Under the pieces are notes generated by a model that saw only the letters and a program-made list of their open reading frames with translations, was not told where the DNA came from and did not search any database. A stretch of 27,025 nt of DNA from a virus. The stretch is taken from positions 1-27,025 of the IMG/VR virus record IMGVR_UViG_3300037502_003121; one strand, given 5' to 3'. The position numbers and the translations under genes were made by a program. Shown piece by piece: positions 1,724 to 17,791 of the stretch (position 1 is its first letter; every line of letters begins with the position of its first letter).

Positions 1724-3835
1724 TTATCTTCCCATCTTGCCCATGATCGCGGCCCGTCTGGCGGCCATTTCCTCGCGGGTGATGATCTTCCGCACCGGTT
1801 TCACCACCTCGGCCCCGACGGCCGTCACGCCGCTGTAGCTGGCCGCCACGGCGGCACCGACAACACCGTCGAGCCAGTGGTTGTCGCGGCCAGGGATGAG
1901 CTGCCATTCATCCACGGTGCGTCCGGTCGTTTTGTTCTCGGTGCGGACGGGATACTCGCTCGCGATGTGGTCAAACAGCATCTCATGCCGGCCGGAGTGA
2001 AACGTGAACGCCATCGGATCGGCCGCACCCAACTTCATCCGGCCGATCACAAGCGACTTCCAGTAGTTCGTGTCGAAAAGGACGTGCCGCTGCTTCTTGA
2101 TTGTGCTGGTCCGCCAATGGGCACCGACCCGCTCGCCTGCCTCAGGTTTGCCTTCCGACATCGTCCTCCGGCTGGCCCCAACGTAGCGGCCGTGCGACGG
2201 CATCAGCCGCGTGCCGTGCCGCGATCGGCGAGCAAAGTCCCGCGTCACGTCCGCCGTCTGTGCCCAGTTGGCGTCCACCAGCATGAGTGCCACGCGGTGG
2301 ACAGCGTCGGAGTCCTCCGACTGAAACTCCCGGCCGAGTATTTCGGTAGCCACAACCTCAAGCCCCTGGTGCATGGCGTCGGCCAGCGGGGCGTTGCCGG
2401 CTGCCAGCCGCAGCGTCTTATCCACCTCGCGGAGTGCGAAATACTGCCGGTGCTGGTCCGGGTAGGTGCCGTAGGCCACGACGTGTCCGCGAAACTGCGG
2501 CCCCCATGCGGCCACCAGCCAGTAAAGGCACGCCTCCTGCACGTCCACGAATGCGGTGAGCGTGCTGCAGCCTGCCGGCACCACCCACTGCGGCACGTTG
2601 ATGGCGTGCGAGGCGAGGTCCGACGTGTTTACCGCGTCTGTTCGCGACTCGTCCGCGAGCGGCTCCTGCTGGTATTCGCTTGCGAACACCTCCGGGCCGT
2701 CGTCGATCAAGGCGTTGTAGAAGTGCTGGACCGCCGACAGCTCCTGCTCCCTGTCGTAGCAGTGCTCCCAGTAGACATCGCAACCTTCGTCCATCGCCTC
2801 GCGGTTGGTCCGGTAGAACTCAGTCGCCTCGCGCCACGCCCGCAACTGATCGCCATCGACCTCTTTGTCGTAGGTCTGCCGCAGCCGCTTGTAGTCGCCC
2901 ATCCAAAGGTCGTCGTGACGCTTCGCCCACGACCGCACCGCCTTCACTCGCACGCCCTGCCAAGCGGGATCGGCGAGTAGCTGGTCAATCACGTCGTTCT
3001 TCTGGATCACCGTGGCGTTGCACACCACCGCCAGAGTCTTGCCGTGGCCACCAAGTTTGAGAATGTTTTTCTTGATGATGGCCAACCGTTTGGCCACCTG
3101 CACCGCGGACGCGGCCGACTCGTCTGTCTGAATGTCGTCGAGGATCACGAGGTCCGGCCGGGCCTGGACGCCATCGGCACGCTTATACCGCAGGCCGCGG
3201 CTCGAGGCCATGAGGCCGTGGCACGAGATGATCGCACCGCTCGCCTTGCTTCCAGGGATCGTCGGAAGCACGATCGTGTCGGCGGTCCATTCGATGTGAG
3301 TGCTCTCTCCCCGATAGGACTGCCCTGCACACCGCTGCGGCTTGCCCTCCAGCGCCCGAATGGCGTGGCACACCTCTGGGAAGTCGTCGTAGAGCAGATC
3401 GTTTTCATTGAACTCCATCTTGATCGAGTCGATCGACATTTGGGCCTTGGTGGATTCGGACCCGAACACCGCAACGAACGATCGCCGACCCGTGCAGGCA
3501 CACCACACCGCAAACACCTCGGAGCGGGTCGTTTTGCCTGAGCCACGCGGCAACGCCTCAATCGAACGCCCGCCATTGTCCGCAGCATCCTGGCATCGCG
3601 TGTTGCCGCGTTGGTGGTCCGGCGACATCGGCCACTGGCCGGTTGAGTGTGGGAAGTAGGTGACGGCAAAAAACTCAAACGACTCCTCGGCCTTCCGGCG
3701 GCGATCCGGATCCTTGACGGGAGGGATCTCGCCTATGTCCGCCCCGCGGCGCGTGCGCTCCCGCGTCCGCTCAAGGTCGAGAAGCCGTTTCCGTTCTGCG
3801 GCCTTGGCCGGATCAGCCGAGGGTGGTCGCCCCAT
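1724..3835 (-). CDS. terL: terminase large subunit (GpA-like packaging ATPase/nuclease)
   Basis: A 703-residue DNA-packaging motor: it hydrolyses ATP to push DNA into the prohead and cuts the concatemer. Walker A is LPRGSGKTT at about residues 95-103. Walker B is DLVILDD at about 228-234. The C-terminal RNase-H-like nuclease shows acidic residues near D431 (TAFVDVQEA), D521 (LMLVDANWA) and D656 (DNHWLDGVVGAAVAAS); the last resembles the GpA-family end motif. The length fits GpA-type terminases. ATG at 3835 has an AGAGG ribosome site. The start lies inside the end of the resolvase gene (23-bp overlap). No small terminase is obvious next to it; one of the small genes upstream could fill that role. 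Confidence 0.93.
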   Translation of the reverse strand: MGRPPSADPAKAAERKRLLDLERTRERTRRGADIGEIPPVKDPDRRRKAEESFEFFAVTYFPHSTGQWPMSPDHQRGNTRCQDAADNGGRSIEALPRGSGKTTRSEVFAVWCACTGRRSFVAVFGSESTKAQMSIDSIKMEFNENDLLYDDFPEVCHAIRALEGKPQRCAGQSYRGESTHIEWTADTIVLPTIPGSKASGAIISCHGLMASSRGLRYKRADGVQARPDLVILDDIQTDESAASAVQVAKRLAIIKKNILKLGGHGKTLAVVCNATVIQKNDVIDQLLADPAWQGVRVKAVRSWAKRHDDLWMGDYKRLRQTYDKEVDGDQLRAWREATEFYRTNREAMDEGCDVYWEHCYDREQELSAVQHFYNALIDDGPEVFASEYQQEPLADESRTDAVNTSDLASHAINVPQWVVPAGCSTLTAFVDVQEACLYWLVAAWGPQFRGHVVAYGTYPDQHRQYFALREVDKTLRLAAGNAPLADAMHQGLEVVATEILGREFQSEDSDAVHRVALMLVDANWAQTADVTRDFARRSRHGTRLMPSHGRYVGASRRTMSEGKPEAGERVGAHWRTSTIKKQRHVLFDTNYWKSLVIGRMKLGAADPMAFTFHSGRHEMLFDHIASEYPVRTENKTTGRTVDEWQLIPGRDNHWLDGVVGAAVAASYSGVTAVGAEVVKPVRKIITREEMAARRAAIMGKMGR

Positions 3836-4295
3836 GGCACCTCTCGTACCAGTGGCAGAGCAGGGCGGCGTCCGCCCGGCCGTCGTCCTTCACCCTGGAA
3901 AACAGGTCGGCGTGTTTCGGCCAAAGCCGGGCCGCCGCGGCCCGGTGGCTGCCCTTGTCGCGGCTGACGCCCAACGCCTTTGTCCACACCTGCGGACGCA
4001 CCAGCGTGTGCGGGATCGCCATGCCGGCCAGCACGCCCTCGACGATGCCGAACGATCGGCCGAACGAGAACGCGGACGTGGCTCCGGTGCCCTGCACGCC
4101 CTGGACGTGCTCGAGGATCGCCATGCAGTCGCCGGCCGCGAGGATGCCTGCGAGGACGCCGTGGAGGCCCGCGGGGTCCACCCGGCGTTTGCCGTTGATC
4201 TCGACGGCCGGCATCTCGTAGCACGCGACCTGGCCGCCGCCAACGACGGCGATCGCGCCGCTGACGCCTGGGTCAATGCCGATCAGTAGGCCCAT
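3813..4295 (-). CDS. RuvC-fold Holliday-junction resolvase-like nuclease
   Basis: A 160-residue RNase-H-fold protein that probably cuts branched DNA before packaging. The first acidic motif is LLIGIDPGVSGAIAV at residues 3-17 (D8). The second is ILEHVQGVQG near 60-69 (E62). The C-terminal KDDGRADAALLCHW near 136-149 carries the paired acidic residues of RuvC. Length and motif order match bacterial and phage RuvC. ATG at 4295 has GGAGGTGA just upstream. It overlaps the HTH gene before it by 23 bp and the terminase after it by 23 bp, so it is tightly coupled to packaging. Confidence 0.9.
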   Translation of the reverse strand: MGLLIGIDPGVSGAIAVVGGGQVACYEMPAVEINGKRRVDPAGLHGVLAGILAAGDCMAILEHVQGVQGTGATSAFSFGRSFGIVEGVLAGMAIPHTLVRPQVWTKALGVSRDKGSHRAAAARLWPKHADLFSRVKDDGRADAALLCHWYERCHGATTLG

Positions 4296-4554
4296 CGCTC
4301 ACCTCCTCGACGATCGTCACCGTTCTCGCCCGACCGTCAACCCAAGAAACCACGCCGTCCCGACGCATCCGCCAGAACTTCGCCGCCACGTCTCCGACGT
4401 TGGTGCCGGCCGCGTTCGCCAACTCGCGGAACGTCGGCGGGTAGCCCTTGGCGTCGCGGAGCCTGCGAAATACTCGCAGCAGCCACAGCTGCCGGTCGGT
4501 GGTGCCGCGGGAGCGGGTGGCGAGGATCGAGGCGGCGGAGAGTTTGCTGGTCAT
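4273..4554 (-). CDS. LexA N-terminal-like winged helix-turn-helix protein
   Basis: A 93-residue DNA-binding protein. Residues about 21-80 match the DNA-binding half of LexA: LLRVFRRLRDAKGYPPTFRE, then LANAAGT as recognition helix region, then KFWRMRRDGVVSW and a wing DGRARTVTI. No LexA peptidase domain follows, so it cannot self-cleave like LexA. It might be a small phage regulator or could have lost regulatory function. Its ATG overlaps the preceding stop (ATGA). Fold confidence is good; targets are unknown. Confidence 0.75.
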   Translation of the reverse strand: MTSKLSAASILATRSRGTTDRQLWLLRVFRRLRDAKGYPPTFRELANAAGTNVGDVAAKFWRMRRDGVVSWVDGRARTVTIVEEVSDGPTDRH

Positions 4555-5069
4555 GCAAACTCCTTGACAGCACTGGTCAACGGCACAAGGTCGCCGGCCC
4601 TCGTCACCCTGGAAAACATCGGTTCCTCGCCAAGCAGGCGAAGCCTGGCGTAGTTGAGAACACGAACCGCCGACAGTGAGTGCATCTTTGGAAGTCCGAT
4701 GTCCAGCACCTTCTTCTCCACGGCCGCGAAATCAGACGGCTGTGACAAATCGACGAGAGCAAGGAAGTCCGCCGTCATCTTGCGGTCCTCATCGTCGTCA
4801 ATGTTCAACTTCAACTTCTCCTCGCGAACAGGCTGCGGTCGCGACGCTCGATTCCTGGCGGAAGCCAACTCCCGGTACGAGTCGAGAATCCACTTGAGCT
4901 GCGGGTACAGCGTGTCGTGATTCCGCTTCACGTTACGAAGGGCGTCGTACAGCATCGGCTGGTCAAGCGCGTGCAGGTCGTCGTGCCAAAGGCGACGCTC
5001 CTCGTCCGTCCACTGACACTGCGGCCAAAGTTGGTTGATCGACGCCCTGTTTTCGTCCCACGTCCTCAC
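4551..5069 (-). CDS. unknown replication-region protein, possible helicase loader
   Basis: A 172-residue protein, not firmly recognised. The N-terminal half is helical with the pattern WPQCQWTDEERRLW, then LDQPMLYDALRNVKRNHDTL and YPQLKWILDSYREL. This layout (helical repeat with 'YP...WI...Y') recalls G39P-type helicase loaders, and its position directly after the DUF1376 gene fits a loader. The C-terminal part (residues 95-172) is charged and shows no motif I know. GTG at 5069 overlaps the upstream stop (GTGA), which supports this start. The loader assignment is inference from context. Confidence 0.6.
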   Translation of the reverse strand: MRTWDENRASINQLWPQCQWTDEERRLWHDDLHALDQPMLYDALRNVKRNHDTLYPQLKWILDSYRELASARNRASRPQPVREEKLKLNIDDDEDRKMTADFLALVDLSQPSDFAAVEKKVLDIGLPKMHSLSAVRVLNYARLRLLGEEPMFSRVTRAGDLVPLTSAVKEFA

Positions 5070-5869
5070 AGGTTGCCTCCTGCCGCCTGGCGGCTTCGTG
5101 CTCGATGCGGCCCCTTCGGGTCGGCAAACTCGCCGGCCCGGATGCGATCCACGAACTGGAAAAACCTCGTCACCGGCAGGGGGCGATCGAAATACTCCCG
5201 GCTCGGGAGCATGGCCATCGCCTCAGAGGCCCGCTGAAGCCACCCAGGAGTCCCAGCAAGGTCCACCCAGCCGTCTGGCGGCGTCAGGTGCGTCCACGGC
5301 TCCGCCCGCTGCGTGGCGTTCCAGGAGGCCGCAAAGCGGCCCCATTCGTCCGCTGCCCATCCGGGTTCGCGAAAATCGTTCTCGCCCCCCGTGTGTGTGT
5401 GTGTTTCTTCGTTTGGGGAAGGGGTTGGGGATGGGTTTTGATTTGGATTTGGATTTGGATTTGGAGGCGATGTTTTTGCGATGCCGTTTGCGATCGGTTT
5501 GCGATCGGTTTGCGATCCGTTTGCGATCGGTTTGCGATCGGCCCAGCGTCGTTCGTTTCCGTTCCTGCCTGCCTCCGACCTAGCTTCCCTAAGTTCGCAA
5601 GCCTTCTCGCGGTGCTGCTCCATCCGCTCGTTTCGGCGCAGGCCGTCGTCGCCGATCGGGAACTTCGGCTCGAGGATCTCCCACACCCGGCCCACGCCAG
5701 GCGACACCAGCTCCAGGCGGCTCAGGTCGGCCGGCAGGCTTCCGGAGTCCCACTGGATCACCAGGAGCCGGATGTAGTGGCCCACCTCCTCGGCGGTCCA
5801 CATGGCCGTCGAGGCGTAGAAGTCGCGGCCGAAGAACGGCATGTAGTGGTCAACTGACGAGCGGGCCAT
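5066..5869 (-). CDS. DUF1376 (YdaU-like) replication protein
   Basis: A 267-residue protein with an N-terminal DUF1376 domain (residues about 8-85: HYMPFFGRDFYASTAMWTAE, HYIRLLVIQW, GSLPADLSRL), a family typical of phage primosome and replication-initiation genes. A repetitive linker follows at about 110-160: RKPIANG twice, then Pro-Asn repeats. A C-terminal domain follows at about 168-267 (WAADEWGRFAASWN, PPDGWVDLAGTPGWL). The linker is encoded by five 11-bp units, a GATTTG hexamer run and a seven-fold GT dinucleotide (5391-5404). ATG at 5869 has GAAAGGA before it; the in-frame TTG at 5887 is less likely. The repeats may be an origin (see repeat entry). Confidence 0.82.
   Translation of the reverse strand: MARSSVDHYMPFFGRDFYASTAMWTAEEVGHYIRLLVIQWDSGSLPADLSRLELVSPGVGRVWEILEPKFPIGDDGLRRNERMEQHREKACELREARSEAGRNGNERRWADRKPIANGSQTDRKPIANGIAKTSPPNPNPNPNQNPSPTPSPNEETHTHTGGENDFREPGWAADEWGRFAASWNATQRAEPWTHLTPPDGWVDLAGTPGWLQRASEAMAMLPSREYFDRPLPVTRFFQFVDRIRAGEFADPKGPHRARSRQAAGGNL
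5440..5541 (+). repeat. 11-bp iteron array plus adjacent AT-richer hexamer run, candidate origin
   Basis: Five tandem copies of TTTGCGATCGG (third copy TTTGCGATCCG) lie at 5487-5541, each 11 bp and so close to one helical turn. A degenerate copy lies just before at about 5475. Next to them, 5440-5463 holds four GATTTG units, the most AT-rich short stretch in this part of the window. Iterons beside an easily melted run, inside the coding sequence of a replication protein, is the layout of the lambda origin in gene O. Origin function is inferred from layout only. Confidence 0.6.
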
Positions 5870-5901: not shown

Positions 5902-7332
5902 TTACCGCCTAACAGGCCGCCGCCTTTCAACCCACGAGTTGCCTATGCTTTTTCTGCAACTCTCGCAGACATACCATCGGAGCTTGCCAGCGGCCGCGAG
6001 CTTCAACTTGTCACCCCCGCAGACGCAGATGAGAGGCGCATTGCTGCAAGAAATCTCTTGGAGCAGCCTGTTTGCGTAGTGGAATGAACGTCCACTAGTC
6101 ACTGCCAAATCCTGTTTCTCTACTGTTTCCAAACTAAGGAGCGATGTGGTGGGCCTTTTGTGTGATTCAATCTCGACATTAAGAACTACAGGAACTGGCT
6201 TCGCGGTTGATATTTCGGCAGCGGACAATGCATTTGTAACGGCAGAGTTGTTTGCAATGCTCCTGAGTTTCCTGGCATCTTCCAAAGACGCTGAGTGACC
6301 GTCCGATATACGCTTCAGAATCTGCTCGGCACTTCGGTGAACTGGCTGAGTCGCTGATGTTGAGCCGGATGAATGACGAGCACGAGACACAAACACCTCG
6401 GCCGCCTTTGCGTCGTCTATCAGTTTCTTGACGAGATCGACGATGTAGTCGCGGTCACCCTTCCAGCTTGCAGTCCACTTACCTCGGTATCTCCACTTTG
6501 TGTCGAACCACGTCCTTCGATTTATCCCTTTCCTCTTCAGTTCCGTGACAACATTTGCGTTCTCCCAATGCAGCCTCACCATCAAGTGCTTCATGCCATC
6601 GTCTGCTGTCGCCGCCTTTGACAGCGGGTGGTCTTCATCCAACAACTGCCAGCGGTCGTCTCCGCACGACTTCCAGATCAGTCCGTAGTAAAAAGCGTAC
6701 AAGGACTCGCTTCCGATTTGCGAAAACAGAGGCCATGCCTTCGGCTTAAATAGTCCGCTTACAATGACGTGGCCGACTGACTCAATGGAACGCATACAAA
6801 TGCGCTCACTCCCTTCCTTTGATCCAAGGCTCCTTGAGCCGCTGTCTGCTATCCACCAGCACCGCCGACCGCTCACCCTCATGTCGTGTATCTTTTTTTC
6901 GTACCGGCCTGTTCCGCTGCTAATCACCTCAACGGCGGTGTCTGTTTCTTCGTGATATGCGTCAAACTGAAATGACGTACTGCTGTCGCGGTGCTCGCAC
7001 GAGAATCCGATTGAGTGGAGCCCTCGCTTTATGCACAGATGGGCCGGTGTTTCAAATCCAGACGGGCACGATCCGCGGGCGGAAGCGTGTGCGAAAAAAG
7101 GAGTCCCCCTCTCGTTGACGTATAGCCGCATTTCTCCGCGACATTTCGGGCACCGAAACGATTCGCCGCTGCCGTGGAGGCCAGATACAACAGCTTGATC
7201 TGCTGTAATCAGTTCGTTTGATGAAACGAGAACCGCAAACGGGTTTGCTCTTGAGGTGGCTCGATCTCCATCCGGAAGCGAAGTGATCCTCTCAAGGATG
7301 GTGTCGTCTGAGATTTCAGATTTAGCCGTCAT
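5902..7332 (-). CDS. CoiA-like nuclease-domain protein with zinc fingers, lower GC insert
   Basis: A 476-residue protein. Residues about 58-90 form a zinc-binding module (FRCPKCRGEM, then FFAHASARGSC) as at the CoiA N-terminus. Then comes the CoiA nuclease-like core: FETPAHLCIKRGLHSIGF near 93, FQFDAYHEETDTAVEVISSG near 121-140 with D124 and E135, placed like PD-(D/E)XK acidic residues, and KIHDMRVSGRRCWWI. The middle is unrecognised. The C-terminus has a second zinc ribbon (ICVCGGD, WYVCESCRK). CoiA acts in competence, but similar phage and island genes are suspected in DNA processing or defence. Base composition is clearly lower in GC than its neighbours. ATG at 7332 has GGAGG eight bases upstream. 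It breaks the chain of overlapping genes, so it is probably a later acquisition. Confidence 0.72.
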   Translation of the reverse strand: MTAKSEISDDTILERITSLPDGDRATSRANPFAVLVSSNELITADQAVVSGLHGSGESFRCPKCRGEMRLYVNERGTPFFAHASARGSCPSGFETPAHLCIKRGLHSIGFSCEHRDSSTSFQFDAYHEETDTAVEVISSGTGRYEKKIHDMRVSGRRCWWIADSGSRSLGSKEGSERICMRSIESVGHVIVSGLFKPKAWPLFSQIGSESLYAFYYGLIWKSCGDDRWQLLDEDHPLSKAATADDGMKHLMVRLHWENANVVTELKRKGINRRTWFDTKWRYRGKWTASWKGDRDYIVDLVKKLIDDAKAAEVFVSRARHSSGSTSATQPVHRSAEQILKRISDGHSASLEDARKLRSIANNSAVTNALSAAEISTAKPVPVVLNVEIESHKRPTTSLLSLETVEKQDLAVTSGRSFHYANRLLQEISCSNAPLICVCGGDKLKLAAAGKLRWYVCESCRKSIGNSWVERRRPVRR

Positions 7333-7369
7333 CTCGCCAACCTCCAAATCCGCCAGTAAGCAATCCGGT

Positions 7370-7510
7370 TCAGCCCGCAAACGCCGCCACTAAATCCCCC
7401 GTATGGCACTTCCCCGTTGGCCACGGCCCACCATTCACACCCTGGCCCCACCGCCGGATCATCGCGCCGCGATCCGTCTCGATGCCGTCCAATACTTCCT
7501 GCAGCGTCAT
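7370..7510 (-). CDS. 46-residue coupled small protein
   Basis: A short frame beginning MTLQEVLDGIETDRGAMIRR and ending GDLVAAFAG. Its ATG overlaps the stop of the winged-helix gene (ATGA), as with its neighbours in this operon, which is the main reason to accept it. The product is charged with a small hydrophobic end; no family is recognised. Confidence 0.5.
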   Translation of the reverse strand: MTLQEVLDGIETDRGAMIRRWGQGVNGGPWPTGKCHTGDLVAAFAG

Positions 7511-7806
7511 GTGGCCCTCCGGTACTCACACTCCCCACCCGCCACCTCGCGTCCCGTCCGCGTGATCGCACCCGTCTTTCTCAGCTCGTGTAGCCGCTTC
7601 GACACCTGGGCCACCGTCAGCCCGGATCGCCTGGCGATCTCGGTCTGGCCCGCAGGGCCGTGCTCGAGGGCCGCGAGGATCTTCCCAGCGTGTTCGCCGC
7701 GGATCGCCGGCACCTTCGCGGCGGCAGCCGCGGAGGTTGGCGGGTTCGATGGGCGGAAGAGCGGGCCGAGGTCGGCGTCGGTGGGCTGGCGGTAGTAGTC
7801 GCTCAT
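7507..7806 (-). CDS. winged helix-turn-helix DNA-binding protein
   Basis: A 99-residue protein. Residues about 40-88 make a MarR/ArsR-like winged helix: HAGKILAALEHGPAGQTEIA, ARRSGLTVAQVSKRLHELRK and TGAITRTGRE as the wing. The N-terminal 35 residues are polar and Ala/Pro-rich, probably flexible. It lies directly downstream of the methyltransferase gene with an ATGA overlap. It could control the methyltransferase or a phage promoter, but no binding site is visible at either end of the gene. Confidence 0.75.
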   Translation of the reverse strand: MSDYYRQPTDADLGPLFRPSNPPTSAAAAAKVPAIRGEHAGKILAALEHGPAGQTEIARRSGLTVAQVSKRLHELRKTGAITRTGREVAGGECEYRRAT

Positions 7807-8657
7807 TTCAGCGCTCCTTCCGCTTCAATGATCGCCCGGCCGATGACTTCGACGACTTGCGGCACGACGGCGTTTCCGAGGCATCTAAGACGGTCCACCC
7901 GAGAGGGAACCCCATGAGCCACTCGACCCACGTCGGGTTCAGTGATCCACCACCCGTTGCCGTCCCATCCTTGAACACGGCCCGCCCCAGTTGGTCGAAC
8001 CTGTCCCTGTCTTCCGTGCAGTTCCAAGTCCGTGGATCTGTCACGTCCTTCCAATCGCGGCTGGTCGGCGTCGGCCATATCCTCGCCGCCACGGCTTCGA
8101 CAAATGATCCGCTGCTCCCCTTTCGTCGAAATCGCTCCGCCATTTCCGGAGTCGGCTCGCATCCGATGCAGGCATCTGCCGTTGGAGTAGGCAACGATCC
8201 AGACACGCTCGCGGCGGTGCGGGGCACCAACTGCTGAAGCTGAAATAACGTGCCATTCCGCGTCATACCCGAGCGTGGCCAGCGTCCCGAGAACAACATC
8301 GGCCCCTCGAGCAAGGAGAGCTGCGACGTTCTCCACGACAACGTAATTGGGTCGTAGCTCGCCAATGATCCGAGCGAACTCATGCCAAAGACCGGACCTT
8401 GCTCCTGCGAGGCCAGCACCTTTTCCTGCAAAGCTGATGTCTTGGCACGGGAATCCTCCGCAGATGAGGTCAACGCCGTAGTCGCCTTGCGGCGGGAACG
8501 TCCGCACGTCGTCGTGCTTTGGCACTTTTGGCCAGTGCTTTCGGAGGACTGCGGTTGCATAAGGGTCAATCTCCACTTGCCACTTGCACGTCATGCCGGC
8601 CCGTTCAAGGCCAAGAGAAAATCCGCCGATTCCAGCGAACAGCTCTCCGAACGTCAT
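7803..8657 (-). CDS. DNA (cytosine-5) methyltransferase, Dcm-type
   Basis: A 284-residue C5-methyltransferase transferring methyl groups from AdoMet to cytosine. Motif I FGELFAGIGGFSLGLERAG is at 3-21. Motif IV GGFPCQDISFAGKG is at 67-80 with catalytic C71. Motif VI VVVENVAALL is at 106-115. Motif VIII is GAPHRRERVWIVA at 144-156. The C-terminal motifs IX/X are DRLRCLGNAVVPQ near the end. All catalytic motifs are intact, and length is near the small phage type. ATG at 8657 is preceded by GGGAGG; longer upstream extensions are not supported. No partner restriction enzyme is seen, so it is probably protective or regulatory. Most of the gene also encodes a second conserved frame (7808-8560). Confidence 0.93.
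   Translation of the reverse strand: MTFGELFAGIGGFSLGLERAGMTCKWQVEIDPYATAVLRKHWPKVPKHDDVRTFPPQGDYGVDLICGGFPCQDISFAGKGAGLAGARSGLWHEFARIIGELRPNYVVVENVAALLARGADVVLGTLATLGYDAEWHVISASAVGAPHRRERVWIVAYSNGRCLHRMRADSGNGGAISTKGEQRIICRSRGGEDMADADQPRLEGRDRSTDLELHGRQGQVRPTGAGRVQGWDGNGWWITEPDVGRVAHGVPSRVDRLRCLGNAVVPQVVEVIGRAIIEAEGALK
7808..8560 (-). CDS. alternative-frame phage protein overprinting the methyltransferase
   Basis: An open frame of 250 residues in a different frame of the same strand as the methyltransferase, lying wholly inside it. It is not random: it reads DSRAKTSALQEKVLASQEQG, then WPRSGMTRNGTLFQL, GSLPTPTADACIG, WPTPTSRDWKD and SLNPTWVEWLMGFPLGWT. From memory, this block order is that of a widespread phage family often annotated as a methylase and normally found as its own gene. 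AKTSALQEKV is simply the shifted reading of the motif IV region CQDISFAGKG. Expression is not shown: ATG at 8560 has no good ribosome site. It could be a true overlapping gene, or a relic of the frame from which the separate family arose. Confidence 0.4.
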   Translation of the reverse strand: MQPQSSESTGQKCQSTTTCGRSRRKATTALTSSAEDSRAKTSALQEKVLASQEQGPVFGMSSLGSLASYDPITLSWRTSQLSLLEGPMLFSGRWPRSGMTRNGTLFQLQQLVPRTAASVSGSLPTPTADACIGCEPTPEMAERFRRKGSSGSFVEAVAARIWPTPTSRDWKDVTDPRTWNCTEDRDRFDQLGRAVFKDGTATGGGSLNPTWVEWLMGFPLGWTVLDASETPSCRKSSKSSAGRSLKRKER

Positions 8658-8884
8658 GCCATCTCCCTCCCCGCAGCCTTCATCACCGCCCGCAGGTGCC
8701 GATCGGTGTAGCGGTAGTGCCCGTACCGCATCTCCGGCGTCGGCAGTTTCGCCATCGCCTTCCGGGCGTCGTACCAGGTCATGGGCGAGCCCGCGGCCCG
8801 GAGGGCGTCGAGAATGTCGCTGCGGCGGTGCCACGTCCTGCGGTGGTCGCCTCGCATCTGATCGAACTGTCGCCACAGTCTCAC
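8654..8884 (-). CDS. small basic protein, unknown
   Basis: A 76-residue basic protein starting at GTG 8884, with GGAGG seven bases upstream. Its TGA overlaps the methyltransferase ATG. Residues about 20-76 are helical and basic (RRSDILDALRAAGSPMTWYD, ARKAMAKLPTPEMRYGHYRY, RHLRAVMKAAGREM), with a layout compatible with a winged helix. I recognise no family. Confidence 0.6.
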   Translation of the reverse strand: MRLWRQFDQMRGDHRRTWHRRSDILDALRAAGSPMTWYDARKAMAKLPTPEMRYGHYRYTDRHLRAVMKAAGREMA

Positions 8885-8985
8885 GAAACACCTCCATGTG
8901 TATTTGCCTCGTGACGTGAGGCTGCCGGCTTGGACACGCTGGGGGAGATTTCAGCGCTCCAAGCTGCCGGTGTATGCGTGGCCAT
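8881..8985 (-). CDS. possible 34-residue leader peptide
   Basis: A very short frame, MATHTPAAWSAEISPSV onward to THGGVS. Its TGA overlaps the GTG start of the next gene (GTGA), the same junction type as elsewhere in this operon. No ribosome site is obvious, and composition is uninformative. It may be only chance. Confidence 0.28.
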   Translation of the reverse strand: MATHTPAAWSAEISPSVSKPAASRHEANTHGGVS

Positions 8986-9010
8986 TGGCACGCGACGACC
9001 GCCGGCGGCG

Positions 9011-9301
9011 TCACACGATGGCCGATGAATCGCAGCCACTGCGGCCCGTGTCGGCCGTGTTCTCGATCGACTCGATCAACGCCACCACCTTGTCCCGTGC
9101 CGCCCGAAGATCCGGAAGCACGGCCATGTCGGCGGCCAACTGCGAGTAGTGCCACGAGGAGGTCATGCGGACCATCACCTGGCCCATGAACTGCGACACG
9201 AACTGCTGATCTCCGACGATGACCAACTCGCCCGTGTCGCGATCCAGGGACGGGCCGCCGCCGCTGTAGTTGTTGAGTTTGGTGCGATATACCGTGGCCA
9301 T
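9011..9301 (-). CDS. unknown protein next to DUF669-like gene
   Basis: A 96-residue protein, MATVYRTKLNNYSGGGPSLD then DTGELVIVGDQQFVSQFMGQ, SSWHYSQLAADMAVLPDLRA and a C-terminal helix DKVVALIESIEN. Not recognised. It begins 11 bases after the DUF669-like gene, so it is in the recombination part of the operon. The ribosome site (AAGAG) is weak. It could be a small accessory of the single-strand-binding protein. Confidence 0.6.
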   Translation of the reverse strand: MATVYRTKLNNYSGGGPSLDRDTGELVIVGDQQFVSQFMGQVMVRMTSSWHYSQLAADMAVLPDLRAARDKVVALIESIENTADTGRSGCDSSAIV

Positions 9302-9312
9302 TTGTGTTCTCT

Positions 9313-9789
9313 TCAAAAAGGAATGTCTTCGTTGCTGGCACCGCTGGCCGCGTCGGCCTTCTGCGTAGAGGTCCGCTTCGGCGGAGCCTTGGATGCCGGC
9401 ACGCTCACCGGTGCAGTCGCCGGCAGGAAGCCGTTGACGTAGACCCGCTGGTTGCCGACCTGGTCGAGAACCGGGGTGCCGTCCTTGACGGCCCGCTGCG
9501 TCTTCACGACGAGCACCTGGCCCACGAGGATGTCGTCCAGCTCCGCGTCCCACGGCCGCCCGAGCGACTCGTTGAGGTTCATGGCCGCCTTCTGGTGAGG
9601 CTTCTTGTCCGGGTTCATCCAGCACTCCACCTCGTTGTAGGAGTCGTTGGTGTCACGGAACGTCACGACGCACCAGGTCTCGCCCTTCTTGGACACGATC
9701 TCGCGGACCTTGGTGATCGCCATCTCGTTCTCGCCGTCGGGGATCACAGACGACGCAAAATCCTCTTCGCTGAAACGGTCAAACTTCAC
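9313..9789 (-). CDS. DUF669-like, probable single-stranded-DNA-binding protein
   Basis: A 158-residue protein. Residues about 1-110 look like a compact beta fold of the phage DUF669 type: KFDRFSEEDFASSVIPDGEN, MAITKVREIVSKKGETWCVV, TFRDTNDSY, then LGRPWDAELDDILVGQVLVV and DQVGNQRVYVNGFLP. The tail is basic and flexible (ASKAPPKRTSTQK) and ends NEDIPF, an acidic tip like that of SSB proteins which recruits partners. The neighbouring Sak4-like ATPase is the typical partner. GTG at 9789 overlaps the previous stop (GTGA). The specific family is moderately sure; ssDNA binding is inference. Confidence 0.68.
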   Translation of the reverse strand: MKFDRFSEEDFASSVIPDGENEMAITKVREIVSKKGETWCVVTFRDTNDSYNEVECWMNPDKKPHQKAAMNLNESLGRPWDAELDDILVGQVLVVKTQRAVKDGTPVLDQVGNQRVYVNGFLPATAPVSVPASKAPPKRTSTQKADAASGASNEDIPF

Positions 9790-9989
9790 GTCTGCACCTC
9801 TGGGTTGTGGGGCTTGTTGCCAACGCGGACAATCCGGTCGGCGTCGAATACCAGGGCGTCGTCGATCAAAGACTTGGCCCGATTGAAGCTCATGGCACCT
9901 CGCTTGAACGCCAGCACGGCGTCCTCCACGATCTGCATCGCGGCGGTGTGTGCCACCTCCTCGAGCCGGTCGTCGTCGCTGCGGCTCAC
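9786..9989 (-). CDS. small helical protein, unknown
   Basis: A 67-residue acidic/helical protein (SDDDRLEEVAHTAAMQIVED, AVLAFKRGAMSFNRAKSLID). GTG at 9989 overlaps the upstream stop (GTGA) and has GGAGG six bases before it; the in-frame ATG at 9992 is too close to that site. No family recognised. Confidence 0.6.
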   Translation of the reverse strand: MSRSDDDRLEEVAHTAAMQIVEDAVLAFKRGAMSFNRAKSLIDDALVFDADRIVRVGNKPHNPEVQT

Positions 9990-10201
9990 CATTCACCTCC
10001 GTATCTGGCGTTCATGCGGTCGATGTGCTCGTCCTCGCAGCCGCTGCGGTAGGCCGCGTCCGCGGCCCGGTAGCCTGGCTTCACCGGAGCTGGACACGGC
10101 CTGCCTTGTTCCTCGTTGGTTGCGTCAACGTCCGGCGTTGGTGCCGACTCGTCTCTGCGGTGCCGATTGACGGCGTCCTGGTCGTGGATGGGCTCGCTCA
10201 T
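9986..10201 (-). CDS. small hydrophilic protein, unknown
   Basis: A 71-residue hydrophilic protein, MSEPIHDQDAVNRHRRDESA to a C-terminal GCEDEHIDRMNARYGGEW. ATG at 10201 overlaps the ATPase stop (ATGA) and has an excellent GGAGGTGA ribosome site. It is probably largely disordered. No family recognised. Confidence 0.6.
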   Translation of the reverse strand: MSEPIHDQDAVNRHRRDESAPTPDVDATNEEQGRPCPAPVKPGYRAADAAYRSGCEDEHIDRMNARYGGEW

Positions 10202-11115
10202 GCCGTCACCTCCTGCGGGTCGATCTGCTCGTGCCGCTTGTTGATCTCGCCGTCCAGCTTGTTCCGCTGGCTCTCGGTCAGGTCGCCGGCCGTCACGGCC
10301 TTGTCGGCCTCGTCGGCGATCTGGCCCAGCTCCTCCACGGTGGTCGCCAACCGGACGCGGTCGAGCCATCCGGCCCGGGCCGCCGGTGCCGGCGTGACGC
10401 CAGCGAACAGCGGGGCCAACGCCTCAACGGACATCGCGACTTCTGCCGGCAGTCCGTAGCGATTCTTGGCGTCCCACGCGGCGGACCGCTCGCAGAACAG
10501 CCTCCGCTCCTTGCCGCCACGCCCGCGGAGCTTGCCGTCATCGCCCTCGACCACGCGGGTCTTGAAGTTGGCGAACAGCACGGCGTCGGACCACTCCAGA
10601 AGCTTTGGAGCCACCTTGGGCCTCATTTTCAGCTCGTACCTGTCGTAGGCTTCCTCAAGGTCCGGCGGAGAAACACGCTTCACGATGCTGTGGGCAATCA
10701 CGACGACGTTGATGCCGCGCTCCACGAGCATTGAGCAGTCGGCAAGCATCGCCGAGAAGTGCTTCGCGATCAGCACACCGCCCTGGCCGTATGGAAGGTC
10801 GTCCGGGTGCCGCTGCTTCTCGTCCTTCGACGCGAGGTGGAGGCAAAGCAGCTCCTCGGCCCAGTCGCCGGAGTCGATCACGATGGTCTGATACCCCATC
10901 GCGTCGCGTGACAGATTGACCAACGCCCCCTTGAGCGTCATCCAGTCGGCACACCGCACGCGGTGGCAGTCGATACGCCGTGAACCGTTCTCCGTGTCAA
11001 GAAACAGCGGATTCGGAAACTGGCTCGCCAGCGTCGTTTTGCCAACGCCGGCAGGACCATGGATGCAAACCTTCGCCGCCGTCTGCTCGATTCCCCTTGT
11101 GATCTTCATTGTCAT
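10198..11115 (-). CDS. phage RecA-fold AAA ATPase (Sak4-like recombinase)
   Basis: A 305-residue NTP-binding protein of the AAA_24/Sak4 type, which in phages promotes single-strand annealing with an SSB. Walker A is HGPAGVGKTTLA at about 19-30. The acidic strand LFLDTENGS is near 37-45. Walker B is TIVIDSGDW at 77-85. A sensor-like VVVIAHS is near 145. Residues about 240-305 form a separate helical tail (VEELGQIADEADKAV, ESQRNKLDGEINKRHEQ). ATG at 11115 has GGGAGG upstream; ATG at 11109 is a weaker alternative. Next to the DUF669-like gene it forms a phage recombination pair. Confidence 0.85.
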   Translation of the reverse strand: MTMKITRGIEQTAAKVCIHGPAGVGKTTLASQFPNPLFLDTENGSRRIDCHRVRCADWMTLKGALVNLSRDAMGYQTIVIDSGDWAEELLCLHLASKDEKQRHPDDLPYGQGGVLIAKHFSAMLADCSMLVERGINVVVIAHSIVKRVSPPDLEEAYDRYELKMRPKVAPKLLEWSDAVLFANFKTRVVEGDDGKLRGRGGKERRLFCERSAAWDAKNRYGLPAEVAMSVEALAPLFAGVTPAPAARAGWLDRVRLATTVEELGQIADEADKAVTAGDLTESQRNKLDGEINKRHEQIDPQEVTA

Positions 11116-11336
11116 CGCGAAACCTCCCTGCGAACGTCCTCGGAAGCCGCCTCCACCGCCTGGCGGAGAAACAGCACGTCTCCCGGGTTGACTCGATATG
11201 TGTCTGCCCCGGCTCGCTGTAGCGATGTCAGCAGCAGTGCCGCCGCACGGTGAACCCGCAGCAGCTTGCACTCCAATGCCGACGCAACGCCTTCACGAGC
11301 CCTTACCGTCTTGTTGCTCTGTCCCTGCAATCCCAT
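11112..11336 (-). CDS. small protein between CsrA and the ATPase, unknown
   Basis: A 74-residue basic, helical protein (REGVASALECKLLRVHRAAA, LLLTSLQRAGADTYRVNPGD, VLFLRQAVEAASEDVRREV). ATG at 11336 lies inside the CsrA gene, a 44-bp overlap in another frame. Its stop overlaps the ATPase start (ATGA). The deep overlap means its translation probably depends on that of CsrA. Not recognised. Confidence 0.55.
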   Translation of the reverse strand: MGLQGQSNKTVRAREGVASALECKLLRVHRAAALLLTSLQRAGADTYRVNPGDVLFLRQAVEAASEDVRREVSR

Positions 11337-12683: not shown

Positions 12684-12845
12684 CGACCCTCGCTTTCGAC
12701 ACAATCCGCGTGCCCGTTTGCGTCGGGACCGCCGAGGGTCGATAGTCGAGGTGTCGGGCAGATTTCGACTGGAGGCGAGGGGAGTGGAAACCTCCCCCAC
12801 CGGTAGTATGTACAGCCGTGCAGTATCGGCGTACTCTGCCCGACA
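12684..12845. repeat. nested inverted repeats upstream of the integrase, candidate attP/arm sites
   Basis: Three perfect inverted repeats lie here. (a) CGACCCTCG at 12684-12692 pairs with CGAGGGTCG at 12733-12741. (b) TGTCGGGCAGA at 12752-12762 pairs with TCTGCCCGACA at 12835-12845. (c) GGGGAG at 12779-12784 pairs with CTCCCC at 12792-12797 and lies inside (b). Integrase arm sites, an attachment site or operators commonly lie at this place, directly before int. The crossover core cannot be defined from one sequence. Confidence 0.5.
12809..12837 (+). promoter_or_regulatory. possible integrase promoter
   Basis: TGTACA (12809-12814), 17-bp spacer, TACTCT (12832-12837). The match to -35 is only four of six. 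The -10 touches the right arm of the 11-bp inverted repeat, so a protein bound there would block it. Confidence 0.35.
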
Positions 12846-12865
12846 ATCACAAAAGGGAGACTGAA

Positions 12866-13825
12866 ATGGCACTGACGATTCGGGAGGTTACGGAGCGTTA
12901 CGCTCTGCTACGGGAGTTGAAGCCGCACACGATCGCGCTCTACGCGATGCTGTGGGAGCGCTTTGAGAGGTTTCTCGGACGGCCGGCCACGGTGCTCGAC
13001 TTCGACGACTTGCTCGTGTCGCGGTATTTGCGGTGGCGGGCCGAGACACCTGGCTGGCGTGGGCGGCTACCGTCGGCCGCGAGCGTGCGGAAGGATCGCG
13101 TGATGATCGCCGCCGTCTGGACTTACGCTGCCCGCAAGCGGTGGGCCGGTGAGTTTCCGGAGCTGCCGAAGATCCGCGTGCCGAAGCGACTGCCGGTTGG
13201 CCGTGCCTACACGGCGGCCGACGTGTCGCAGCTCATCCGCACGGCGAAGAAGCGGATCGGCAAGGTTGGAGGGCTGCCGGCGAAGTGGTGGTGGAGTACG
13301 TTGATTTATTGCGCTGTCTGCAGCGGTGAACGCTACTCGGCTTTGACCGCCCTGCGGTGGGACCAGGTGGACCTCGAGCGACGGCGGGTCATCTTCCTGG
13401 GTTCGACGCGGAAGGGCGCCACGAGGGACATTGAGCGTGGCATCACCCCGCAACTCGCGGAGATGATGGCCGAGCACCGCCGCGGCCCTGGCGACCTGGT
13501 GTGGCCGTGGGACCGCCGGACCAGGAGCCAGTGGGCGAGCCTCAAGGTTCTATGCGACTCCGCCGGCGTCAGGTATCGGGGCTTCCACGGCCTGCGTCGG
13601 ACGGCAGCGAGTTATGCAGCCCTCGTTGGCGGGACCGCCGCCGCCACGGCCCTCCTCGATCACATGGACCCGACTCTTCAACGGGTATATGTCGATCCTG
13701 AGATTTGCCCGACCGACCAAGGCGGGATCATGTCGCTGCCGCCCCTGGACCTGGACGAGCCGCCGCCGCAGCCGGAGCCCCCGGACGTGCTGCGGTTTCG
13801 CTCGCCGGAAGATCCCGCTGCTTGA
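12866..13825 (+). CDS. int: tyrosine recombinase / phage integrase
   Basis: A 319-residue site-specific recombinase catalysing integration and excision through a covalent 3'-phosphotyrosine. The N-terminal SAM-like core-binding domain is at about 5-100. In the catalytic domain, R156 (CSGERYSAL), K183 (STRKG), H241 and R244 (FHGLRRTAASYA), H266 (LLDHMDP) and the nucleophile Y275 (RVYVDPEI) are all present. The tail after 285 is Pro-rich. ATG at 12866 has AAAGGGAG upstream; a GTG at 12818 would add 16 unlikely residues. It diverges from the HTH gene, as phage int/xis or int/repressor pairs often do. Confidence 0.92.
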   Translation: MALTIREVTERYALLRELKPHTIALYAMLWERFERFLGRPATVLDFDDLLVSRYLRWRAETPGWRGRLPSAASVRKDRVMIAAVWTYAARKRWAGEFPELPKIRVPKRLPVGRAYTAADVSQLIRTAKKRIGKVGGLPAKWWWSTLIYCAVCSGERYSALTALRWDQVDLERRRVIFLGSTRKGATRDIERGITPQLAEMMAEHRRGPGDLVWPWDRRTRSQWASLKVLCDSAGVRYRGFHGLRRTAASYAALVGGTAAATALLDHMDPTLQRVYVDPEICPTDQGGIMSLPPLDLDEPPPQPEPPDVLRFRSPEDPAA

Positions 13826-13872
13826 ATCCCTGTTGATCGGTTCCGTACCTTTGCCACCGCCCGGAGGTCAGT

Positions 13873-14220
13873 ATGCGTCCGCCTGTTCGTCCAGTGTTCG
13901 TCGCTGCATCCGGCGGTGCCCTGGTGGCCACCGCCTGGGCGTGGTGCTTCCGGGCCATGCTGGCCACGCTGCCCGTTACGCACGGCCCGGCCCCGCTCGA
14001 GCACCGCGAGGAGCGGCCCGCCATGGTGGAGGCGGAGCCGACGCCGCCCATCGAGGAGAAGGTCGAGCGGCGGGTGGTGGTAGCGAAACGCCCGCGGCTT
14101 GGCGGAGTTGAACGCCGCGGCGGACCGCCTGGGCCGCCGGGCGGGATCACGGGAGGATTCTCACCCAACGGCGGGTTGCACGCTGGAGACTCCGGCGAGT
14201 TCGGAAAGCGCGGACGGTAG
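13873..14220 (+). CDS. small membrane-anchored Pro/Gly-rich protein
   Basis: A 115-residue protein 47 bases after int, with a very good GGAGG site. Residues about 7-33 (VFVAASGGALVATAWAWCFR and following) form a signal anchor. The rest is charged (HREERPAMVEAEP, IEEKVERRVVVAKR) and then Gly/Pro-rich (GGPPGPPGGITGGF). It may sit in the inner membrane with a disordered periplasmic part. Function unknown. It is the last gene before a strong terminator. Confidence 0.6.
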   Translation: MRPPVRPVFVAASGGALVATAWAWCFRAMLATLPVTHGPAPLEHREERPAMVEAEPTPPIEEKVERRVVVAKRPRLGGVERRGGPPGPPGGITGGFSPNGGLHAGDSGEFGKRGR

Positions 14221-14223
14221 CAC

Positions 14224-14251
14224 GCCGCGATCAGCGGCGGGCGGTTTTTTT
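14224..14251 (+). terminator. rho-independent terminator after the int operon
   Basis: Stem GCCGC/GCGGC with loop GATCA (14224-14238), six GC bases, then seven T (14245-14251). It overlaps the region just after the stop of the small membrane protein gene and faces right. Confidence 0.65.
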
Positions 14252-14370
14252 CGCCCCCTTTCGGGCGGCACTCTACGATTGGGTGCCGTTCGCAGCCGGG
14301 GCAGCCCGCGTGCCGCGGGCTGGAAGGACCCCCGCATCGTGGGGGGCTGTTCGCCCCCCACGGGAGGGGG

Positions 14371-14422
14371 CGCGAGTATTTCGATGGCCGACCGCCATCG
14401 GCCCGCGAGTATTTCGATGGCC
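14371..14422 (+). repeat. two 19-bp direct repeats, 33 bp apart
   Basis: CGCGAGTATTTCGATGGCC occurs exactly at 14371-14389 and again at 14404-14422, a start-to-start distance of 33 bp, about three helical turns. Each contains the 10-bp word GAGTATTTCG that is dispersed elsewhere in the window, and each runs into a GGCC-centred palindrome. Confidence 0.85.
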
Positions 14423-14579
14423 ATCGGCGGTGCTCGTCGTGCGATGGCCATCGCACGACCGCGAGCCGATGAGCCGACGACTACCAGGCCGACGAGCCGA
14501 CGAGCCGACGAGCTGGCCACGTCGTCGGCCACAATCGCACGACCGGCGACGCGGTCCGGTTTCGCGTTTCCTAACTGTC

Positions 14580-14597
14580 CATTGGCGATCGCCAATA
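14580..14597. promoter_or_regulatory. palindromic operator, copy 1
   Basis: CATTGGCGATCGCCAATA contains a 16-bp perfect palindrome (14581-14596). It is about 50 bp upstream of the -35 of the promoter at 14647 and matches the shared word (T/C)ATTGnCGATCGnCAATA found in three promoters of the rightward module. Confidence 0.6.
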
Positions 14598-14646
14598 CCA
14601 TGCCGCCCGCGATTTCCACGGTTCCAAATATTTTTCGTTCATGCCC

Positions 14647-14675
14647 TTGACACAGTATTGTCGATCGACTATACT
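14647..14675 (+). promoter_or_regulatory. near-consensus promoter with embedded operator, leaderless start
   Basis: -35 TTGACA (14647-14652), 17-bp spacer, -10 TATACT (14670-14675), then six bases to ATG 14682. The operator-like TATTGTCGATCGACTATA (14656-14673) fills the spacer and enters the -10. With this spacing transcription should begin at or next to the ATG. Confidence 0.8.
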
Positions 14676-14681
14676 CAGGAC

Positions 14682-15269
14682 ATGAACACGAACGAACACA
14701 AAGCAAACGCCGCCGCCGCTGGCCTTCAATGGGCCGACGTGCTCGCCGCATATCGTGAGGCCCGGGCTATCGAGGCCGCGGAGTTGGAGCGTATCGGCGA
14801 GTTTCGCCGCGACGCATTCCGCCAGCTATCCGGCGACGAGCACGGCGGGCGATTCAAGGGACGGCACCGCGACGCATTCGCGGGCGGCGACGCAACCTAC
14901 ATTCGCGGTCTCGACGTGACGGCCGCGGGCCGTGGCGTGACGGCCGACGAGTTGTACGCTGATCTCGCCACGTCGGCCCCGACCATGCGGCCGGCCGACG
15001 ATGTGATGGCCGAAGTGATCGACCGCCTAGCCGACCAGGCCGGCGACGCCGACGGCGTCGCGATCACCTGGACCGGCCTTGTCGCCGCCGCCGCCGCGGC
15101 CGACATAACCGAACAATGGTTGCGACAACTGGTGAAAGCCGGCAAGGTCCGCGGCCGGAAGGTCGGCCGCCGTTGGGAGGTAGCCGCGGCGGACGTGGCA
15201 TTCTTCCAGCGTCATCCGACGGCCGGCCGTCCGCGGTTGCGTGCCCACCTTGCCGCCGCCCCTTTTTGA
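14682..15269 (+). CDS. helix-turn-helix protein with RHPTAGRP tail
   Basis: A 195-residue Ala-rich protein. The N-terminal half is helical and charged (WADVLAAYREARAIEAAELE), unrecognised. The C-terminal ~75 residues form an excisionase-type HTH: ITWTGLVAAAAAADITEQWL, RQLVKAGKVRGRKVGRRWEV, then AADVAFFQRHPTAGRPRLR. The RHPTAGRP box also ends the small HTH protein at 17826-18089; GRPR resembles a minor-groove AT-hook core. It is the first gene after a near-consensus promoter six bases upstream, so it is probably translated from a leaderless mRNA and abundant. A role as regulator of the rightward module, acting on the shared operator, is inference. Confidence 0.7.
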   Translation: MNTNEHKANAAAAGLQWADVLAAYREARAIEAAELERIGEFRRDAFRQLSGDEHGGRFKGRHRDAFAGGDATYIRGLDVTAAGRGVTADELYADLATSAPTMRPADDVMAEVIDRLADQAGDADGVAITWTGLVAAAAAADITEQWLRQLVKAGKVRGRKVGRRWEVAAADVAFFQRHPTAGRPRLRAHLAAAPF

Positions 15270-15278
15270 ATCTATATT
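15250..15278 (+). promoter_or_regulatory. promoter of the 15352 gene
   Basis: TTGCCG (15250-15255), 17-bp spacer, TATATT (15273-15278). The -35 is moderate. It starts inside the 3' end of the HTH gene. An operator copy begins inside the -10. Confidence 0.5.
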
Positions 15279-15292
15279 GTCGAGCGCCAATA
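15275..15292. promoter_or_regulatory. palindromic operator, copy 3
   Basis: TATTGTCGAGCGCCAATA, an imperfect palindrome matching the consensus of the copies at 14580, 14656 and 18129. It overlaps the -10 and the expected transcription start. Confidence 0.55.
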
Positions 15293-15351
15293 CCGCACAA
15301 CCGAAACCGCCGCGGTTCAATCGGCGGAAAACCCTGCAGGAGACCGAGACC

Positions 15352-15621
15352 ATGAACGCCAACTACCTTGAAACCGTCGCCGCTGCTGACCGCCTGACGA
15401 TCGACGCCGCCTACCTTGCCGGCCAGCTCGAGGCCGCCCACATGGCCGCGGCGGGTCGCTGGGCCTGCGCCATGTTGGACGCCACCGCGGCCGGCAACGT
15501 GGCCATAGCCGCCTATGCGGCCGGCATGGCCGACAGCCACCGGGCCGCGGCCGACGCCGCCCGGGCCGTGCCCAACGCTAGCAGCGGCAAGGCCGAACCC
15601 ACCCTCACGCTCGCCTCGTGA
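15352..15621 (+). CDS. small Ala-rich protein, unknown
   Basis: An 89-residue, very Ala-rich helical protein (ETVAAADRLTIDAAYLAGQL, AAHMAAAGRWACAMLDATAA, AYAAGMADSHRAAADAARA). The whole length looks like a few amphipathic helices. ATG at 15352 has CAGGAG upstream followed by ACCGAGACC, the same leader as the ArdC-like gene. It directly precedes that gene. No family recognised; an accessory of ArdC or a small DNA-mimic-like protein could be imagined, but it is not strongly acidic. Confidence 0.6.
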   Translation: MNANYLETVAAADRLTIDAAYLAGQLEAAHMAAAGRWACAMLDATAAGNVAIAAYAAGMADSHRAAADAARAVPNASSGKAEPTLTLAS

Positions 15622-15639
15622 TCCCGACCGCCCCACAAC

Positions 15640-15674
15640 CGGCCGCCCCGCGGAGGCCGGCCATGGGGCGGCCG
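15640..15674. repeat. intergenic hairpin with GGCCGCCCC word
   Basis: Perfect 10-bp arms CGGCCGCCCC (15640-15649) and GGGGCGGCCG (15665-15674), 15-base loop, in the spacer before the ArdC-like gene. There is no T run, so it is more likely an RNA-stability or processing element than a terminator. Related words begin the next two spacers at 16675 and 17095. Confidence 0.6.
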
Positions 15675-15723
15675 GGCACGCTGCCCGACCACAACCCACA
15701 ACCACAACCGGGAGACCGAGACC

Positions 15724-16668
15724 ATGAGAACCACGACCACAACCAGCCGCCCCGACGTATACGCCACCGTCACGGACGCGATCGTCGCCAAACTGGAATC
15801 CGGCACGCTCGCCCCGTGGCATCAGCCTTGGAAGGCCGGGCACGCGGCCGGCCCGGTCTCACGACCGCTGCGCCACAACGCACAACCCTACTCAGGGGTT
15901 AACGTGCTCGTGTTGTGGATCGCGGCCGAGTCGGCCGGCCACGTTTCCCCGTACTGGCTCACCTACCGTCAGGCTCAGGAGTTGGGCGGGCACGTTCGAA
16001 AGGGTGAGAAGTCTACCACCGTCGTCTACGCGAGCACGTTCAAGAAAACCGAAACCGCCGACGACGGCACGAAAACCGACCGCTCGATCCCGTTCCTGAA
16101 AACCTACGCGGTTTTCAACGCCAACCAGTGCGACAACCTGCCCGGCCATTACTACCAAATGGCGACCCCGCCGGCCGGCCACGTTGACCCGCTGCCCTCG
16201 GTGCTCGCGTTCGCCGCCAACACCGGCGCCGACATTCGCACGGGCGGAGCACGAGCCTACTACAACCCATCCGCCGACTACGTCCAAATGCCGGAGGCTA
16301 CGACGTTTGAGGATGCCGAATCGCACGCCGGCACCCTGGTGCACGAGCTGGCACACTGGACCGGCCACGGCTCGCGACTCGCTCGCGACTTCTCCGGCCG
16401 ATTCGGCGACGACAAGTATGCCGCCGAGGAGCTGGTAGCCGAGCTGGCCGCCGCGTTCCTCGCGGCCGACCTTGGATATGAGGCCGAGCCCCGCGATGAC
16501 CACGCCGCCTACCTCGCGTCGTGGCTCCGGATTTTGAAGGCCGACAAGCGAGCGATTTTCACCGCCGCCAGCGCCGCCAGCCGCGCCGCCGCCTATCTCC
16601 ACAGTCTGCAGCCGGGCGGAGCCAACCAGCCGACCGCCGACGACCTCGAGCCGATCGCCGCCGAGTGA
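15724..16668 (+). CDS. ardC: ArdC-like antirestriction protein with zincin-type metallopeptidase domain
   Basis: A 314-residue protein. The N-terminal ssDNA-binding domain of the ArdC/TraC type is at about 9-135: DVYATVTDAIVAKLESGTLA, then PWHQPWKA, YSGVNVLVLW, PYWLTYRQAQELGGHVRKGE, and FNANQCDNLP. The C-terminal MPTase domain carries the zincin motif HELAHWTGH (H207, E208, H211) and the later EELVAELAAAFL, whose Glu is the likely third zinc ligand. ArdC protects incoming DNA from restriction and is typical of conjugative plasmids and some phages. ATG 15724 has GGGAG upstream. The full length is intact. Its presence suggests plasmid ancestry for this module. Confidence 0.9.
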   Translation: MRTTTTTSRPDVYATVTDAIVAKLESGTLAPWHQPWKAGHAAGPVSRPLRHNAQPYSGVNVLVLWIAAESAGHVSPYWLTYRQAQELGGHVRKGEKSTTVVYASTFKKTETADDGTKTDRSIPFLKTYAVFNANQCDNLPGHYYQMATPPAGHVDPLPSVLAFAANTGADIRTGGARAYYNPSADYVQMPEATTFEDAESHAGTLVHELAHWTGHGSRLARDFSGRFGDDKYAAEELVAELAAAFLAADLGYEAEPRDDHAAYLASWLRILKADKRAIFTAASAASRAAAYLHSLQPGGANQPTADDLEPIAAE

Positions 16669-16674
16669 TCGCTC

Positions 16675-16710
16675 GGCCGCCCCGGCCACCCCTCGCCGTC
16701 CGGCGAGGGG
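16675..16710. repeat. intergenic repeat word and 9-bp hairpin after ArdC
   Basis: GGCCGCCCCGGCCACC (16675-16690) recurs exactly at 17095-17110, each time a few bases after a stop codon. Here it runs into a perfect hairpin CCCCTCGCC/GGCGAGGGG (16689-16710, 4-base loop). The lack of a T run again argues for RNA processing or stability and not termination. Confidence 0.6.
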
Positions 16711-16775
16711 GCACCGGGCCGGCCCGGCAGTCTGCCGGCCACCGCGACCCAAAACACCAACCAGGAGCCACACCC

Positions 16776-17764: not shown

Positions 17765-17791
17765 CCGCCACAACCAGCCGCCGCACCAGTA

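Follow-up and report, generated by a model that had tools for sequence, protein, structure and literature searches.

Tandem 11-bp units inside a viral DUF1376-like gene as the probable iteron part of an in-gene replication origin

The DNA analysed here, hereafter the window, is a 27,025-bp IMG/VR virus record (IMGVR_UViG_3300037502_003121; GC 0.65), in which the gene for a DUF1376-like protein carries an array of tandem 11-bp units. Judged from sequence comparison, this array is most probably the iteron part of an in-gene phage replication origin, with the DUF1376 protein as the candidate initiator. We read it so because a family-wide 11-bp period, an AT-rich tract on one side of the repeats and, in relatives, neighbouring loader genes, all described below, are what a lambda-type in-gene origin predicts.

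The array and the adjoining hexamers in the window

The array spans 5466..5541 on the minus strand and consists of five 11-bp units at 5487-5541, a 12-bp sixth unit at 5475-5486 and a degenerate seventh, GGCGAT, at 5466-5471, with which the array reaches 5466. The first-pass annotation had described five tandem units; four of these (5487-5497, 5498-5508, 5520-5530 and 5531-5541) are indeed perfect and read TTTGCGATCGG on the plus strand, but the one at 5509-5519 (TTTGCGATCCG) is near-perfect, with one mismatch, and the sixth unit (TTTGCGATGCCG) had been overlooked. In its coding-strand form, the window unit is GATCGCAAACS. TRF scores the array 111 at period 11 and 127 at period 33, and identity at lag 11, counted from 5486, amounts to 42 of 44 positions, as compared with 24/44 for the best stretch elsewhere in the 27 kb and 27/44 for the best over 200 first-order Markov shuffles.

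The peptide encoded by the array, ADRKPIANGSQTDRKPIANGIAK, lies within the linker of the DUF1376-like protein, and 33 bp, or three units, correspond to an 11-residue peptide repeat (DRKPIANGSQT/DRKPIANG) present in about two copies. When the protein was held fixed and synonymous codons were permuted, the lag-11 identity, 0.94 in the actual sequence, averaged 0.63 (p=1/301, the lowest that this test allows); the earlier objection to a repeated peptide as the cause of the array therefore holds. Within the array, relatives compared in pairs encode a shared amino acid by the same codon 92% of the time, compared with 53-59% in the two folded domains.

The four GATTTG hexamers lie exactly where they had been placed previously, at 5440..5463 on the minus strand and likewise within the linker-coding part; they read CCAAAT on the coding strand, encode PNPNPNPN and form a candidate unwinding element. 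Their lag-6 identity exceeds what the protein explains (p=0.005), and by nearest-neighbour calculation the 50-bp stretch over them (5428..5477) ranks within the least stable 0.5% of all such stretches in the window (-1.32 vs a mean of -1.59), with the GC content of 5430-5486 at 0.44 compared with 0.65 for the window as a whole. Past the hexamers, an (AC)n/(GT)n run at 5391..5404 on the minus strand encodes THTHT; as a (CA)n run in the coding direction, it is retained in most relatives (L014-L041).

The DUF1376-like protein and its gene neighbourhood

The gene of the proposed origin-binding initiator was assigned to 5066..5869 on the minus strand from profile matches, predicted structure and homologue starts, and its product has 267 residues. 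An ATG start at 5869 is favoured over a TTG at 5887, given that the homologues L017 and L019 begin at the MAR methionine. The protein matches the Pfam DUF1376 profile (PF07120) weakly (E 2.8e-5; 24.9 bits, under the cut-off of 30.1), and 56 of the 57 members of its alignment match the same profile at E<=0.001; among PHROGs, it matches primosomal protein families (2e-10). In a Pfam scan at E<=0.01 DUF1376 alone was listed, with no match to Phage_rep_O, the lambda O family.

AlphaFold2 models the DUF1376 domain at high confidence and the linker (model residues 118-154) as disordered, and the predicted layout comprises a winged-helix-like N-domain, the disordered linker and a helical C-domain. 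Since the linker encoded by the array is predicted to be disordered, it could tolerate DNA shaped by an origin. The best fold matches of the N-domain are weak (all below Z 8) and fall on winged-helix domains, led by the ORC2 C-terminal domain (Z 5.5) and including MarR proteins (Z 2.3-3.6), which agrees with a DNA-binding N-domain without proving one; a sequence search returned no solved DUF1376 structure below E 0.75.

Immediately downstream, a companion gene (4551..5069, minus strand, 172 aa) overlaps the DUF1376 stop by 4 bp and occupies the position that P holds in lambda; it is conserved along with the DUF1376 gene and stands at the equivalent place in nearly all relatives. Neither profile nor fold comparison matched its product to a loader family, and the fold search with its model gave nothing below E 0.38, with hits to generic helical bundles only and the N-terminal part barely covered. 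In relatives, the DUF1376 gene is often found downstream of cro/cII-like regulators, and the gene that follows it often encodes a P-like loader (L057, L060, L074), a DnaC-like loader (L066) or a helicase (L089, L120); in named phages, genes annotated as DnaC, P, DnaB-like or DnaA-like neighbour DUF1376.

The rest of the window carries genes for a terminase large subunit (1724-3835), a RuvC-like resolvase (3813-4295), a DNA methyltransferase (7803-9341), an SSB-like protein (9313-9996, a weak match), a Sak4-like annealing ATPase (10198-11271), a protein with a dATP/dGTP diphosphohydrolase N-domain (24016-24636; Pfam 1.5e-19) and a DNA repair exonuclease (24633-25865). Directly upstream of the DUF1376 gene, in a stretch whose GC content is below that of the rest, 5902-7380 encodes a protein that weakly matches the CoiA N-terminal profile (E 9.3e-5). 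Between the minus-strand phage genes, a plus-strand block at 12818-20000 encodes an integrase, an ArdC-type antirestriction protein and a Prim-Pol primase N-domain (19058-19624), and may have been inserted as an element or be a separate module that brings its own replication gene.

The 11-bp period in relatives and across the family

A scan of IMG/VR yielded 29 relatives of the window gene; GTDB genomes contributed none of the window clade. Every relative with a readable linker has an array of 11-bp period at the equivalent place, with slightly differing unit counts. The main unit class, GATCGCAAANN, is found in the window and in most other relatives, a second class, CAAGCAAACGN, in L018, L035, L037, L038, L040 and L041, and the distant relative L042 has the unit GATCGCAGTGN; the DNA core common to the two main classes is GCAAAC. 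Comparison of the DUF1376 cores revealed no nameable specificity residues for the change of unit from GATCGCAAACC to CAAGCAAACGG: besides poorly aligned N-terminal residues, position 111 alone separates the two classes, and it sits at the edge of the array. Comparing L018 with L017/L022, the unit class changes (GATCGCAAA to CAAGCAAAC) with a nearly unchanged DUF1376 core, as if arrays were exchangeable or GCAAAC alone were read.

Beyond this clade, we collected 197 DUF1376 genes from GenBank phages, GTDB genomes and IMG/VR, which gave 130 non-redundant linkers. Across these, the best local identity at lag 11 averages 0.610, while most other lags outside the multiples of three give about 0.42-0.48; lag 22, a multiple of 11, reaches 0.528, and lags 6 and 12 are likewise high, owing to the hexamers. 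At lag 11, no signal is seen in the controls, namely the C-terminal parts (0.417) and the flanking DNA (0.437). With codons permuted within each gene and the protein fixed, 58% of the genes are significant at lag 11 (p<=0.05), compared with 12% at lag 10 and 4% at lag 13, and with 2.9% at lag 11 for 102 neighbouring control ORFs; a significant lag-11 signal is thus missing in 42% of the family. Taking one gene from each of 34 N-domain clusters at 60% identity, lag 11 still stands at 0.593, over a background of 0.443 +/- 0.014 (Wilcoxon p=2e-6).

The units themselves differ between lineages, with CAACGACCGTT in Pseudomonas, Enterobacteria and Moraxella, ATGCAAATGCA in Rhizobium, AGCAATGC-type units in relatives from Methylorubrum, Mesorhizobium and Sphingomonas, and GATCGCAATGC in Fulvimarina and Aquamicrobium. 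As the units vary by clade while the 11-bp period persists, it is the pitch that is conserved and not the unit. DNA-level conservation in related phages, which the first-pass annotation had put forward as a check, is therefore found for the 11-bp pitch and its position but not for the letters of the unit. The same annotation had named related genes lacking an iteron pattern in the linker as evidence against an origin; we find the opposite, an 11-bp linker period that is family-wide and goes beyond what the protein sequence accounts for.

The position of the array and the composition around it recur as well. Within the family, the array centre lies at a median of 44% into the gene. Among the 76 genes whose array is significant, 73 are richer in AT over the 60 nt on its 3' side than on its 5' side (GC 0.435 vs 0.575). 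The GC3 of these 60 nt is 0.347 as compared with 0.615 gene-wide; given this AT bias at synonymous third positions, the AT-rich tract is not solely due to the encoded amino acids. Of the 29 genes that have both iterons and hexamers (ACAGAT, CCATCT or CCAAAT, for example), 28 place the hexamers after the iterons.

Proposed mechanism, competing explanations and known origins

In the mechanism that we propose, the winged-helix-like N-terminal domain of DUF1376 would bind the 11-bp units, one for each turn of the helix, which would align several protomers along one face of the DNA; their binding would strain and open the neighbouring hexamer tract, which is AT-rich and lies 3' of the array in coding-strand orientation, and the replicative helicase would be loaded at the opened tract with the aid of the protein encoded by the next gene (4551-5069). 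We infer all of these steps, from the binding of DUF1376 and the place of melting to the part of the 4551-5069 product in helicase loading, and likewise origin activity itself. A more far-reaching proposal, whose chances we place a little short of even, is that DUF1376 constitutes a distinct class of initiator that carries the origin in its own gene and forms a one-faced filament on the 11-bp array, with one protomer per turn, which feeds a melting element made of hexamers, the unit drifting around a short core (such as GCAAA or TCAACG) while the pitch stays fixed.

Several observations count against an origin. The Prim-Pol primase fragment at 19.1-19.6 kb may be part of a different replication module, the companion gene of the window matches no loader family, 42% of the family genes lack the lag-11 signal, and cumulative GC skew, suggested earlier as a check, shows no turn at 5.5 kb: the curve falls steadily through this position and turns near 12 kb with gene orientation, which is all that it tracks, so that it is uninformative on the origin.

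Of the other explanations, an operator, at which the DUF1376 protein or a phage repressor would bind the units and control transcription of the operon rather than replication, is the one to which we grant most, although it too is unlikely. Helical phasing suits any cooperative DNA binder, and cro/cII-like regulators lie just upstream in relatives; an operator, however, needs neither a site in the middle of the gene, nor a one-sided tract with synonymous AT bias, nor loaders as neighbours. The protein itself could be the reason for the repeats if the 11-residue DRKPIANGSQT were useful to the linker and the DNA period a by-product, and the match between three units and 11 residues, with the peptide recurring about twice, speaks for this; but synonymous permutation strips much of the signal, both in the window and in 58% of the family, the codons within the array are 92% identical, and the linker is predicted to be disordered. 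We consider a peptide origin of the period very improbable and have rejected it, as the lag-11 signal exceeds the encoded protein by both permutation and codon identity.

The two last explanations have, in our estimate, a slightly smaller chance still. Neutral tandem expansion through slippage in a tolerant linker would fit the readiness with which tandem repeats expand and the slight variation in unit count among relatives, but slippage favours no particular period, whereas 11 beats 10, 13 and 14 across differing units, and units are retained in divergent relatives; we rejected it on the preference for period 11 across different units. The repeats might also act in RNA, for instance as sites for an RNA-binding protein or as a transcript pause signal, since the sequence is transcribed and the tests applied cannot separate RNA from DNA; against this stand a period of 11 nt, which is about one turn of the DNA helix and for which single-stranded RNA offers no evident reason, and the setting in a replication operon.

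The reading of the array as the iteron part of an origin matters beyond the window. DUF1376, a large family found in prophages and phages, is listed as being of 'unknown function' in Pfam, and the DNA signature inside its gene would assign it the role of an origin-binding initiator. If this is true, the replication origin could be located from sequence alone in many prophages and phages, and an in-gene origin design built on one helical turn would join that of lambda.

Lambda carries its origin midway through gene O, where an AT-rich tract follows the iterons (PMC7466680). The resemblance to the lambda origin, which extends to the Shiga-toxin-converting lambdoid phages, is that the proposed origin is placed in the middle of the candidate initiator gene, with the iterons preceding the AT-rich tract in the same direction, and a helicase loader as the next gene is seen in DUF1376 relatives as in lambda. 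The differences are in the iterons and in the initiator: lambda has four iterons of 18 bp each at spacings of 20, 24 and 23 bp, while the window has six or seven 11-bp units placed 11-12 bp apart, and the lambda initiator belongs to the O family, to which DUF1376 has no match. Of the lambda-type origin proposed in the first-pass annotation, the layout therefore stands, with iterons in mid-gene and an AT-rich tract toward the 3' end of the gene, but not the family of the initiator or the 18-bp iteron.

A second comparison is offered by the Rac prophage of E. coli K-12, which possesses an active origin, oriJ (PMC3945230); plasmids based on oriJ have been studied (Potrykus 2000, as cited in PMC11014345). 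In this prophage, the replication genes of the stretch concerned are ydaU (DUF1376) and the adjoining ydaV, which is annotated as a putative ATP-binding protein and whose counterpart in the related phage 683R6 is annotated as DnaC-like. The literature searched contained no text that places oriJ within ydaU. Like the window gene, the gene L044, near-identical to ydaU, has a lag-11 signal, although a weak one (p=0.033), and an adjacent AT-rich tract; it differs in that its units are degenerate and 11-12 bp apart.

The openly accessible literature searched held nothing that links DUF1376 to iterons or describes a family-wide 11-bp form. Plasmid iteron origins of the RepA/RepE type likewise have direct repeats in tandem that are phased with the helix and sit beside an AT-rich tract, as in the DUF1376 genes, but their iterons are longer and usually located outside the rep gene, and their initiators are unrelated to DUF1376. 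In-gene iteron origins are already known, and the new part, judged by the literature searched, is the family-wide 11-bp form tied to DUF1376.
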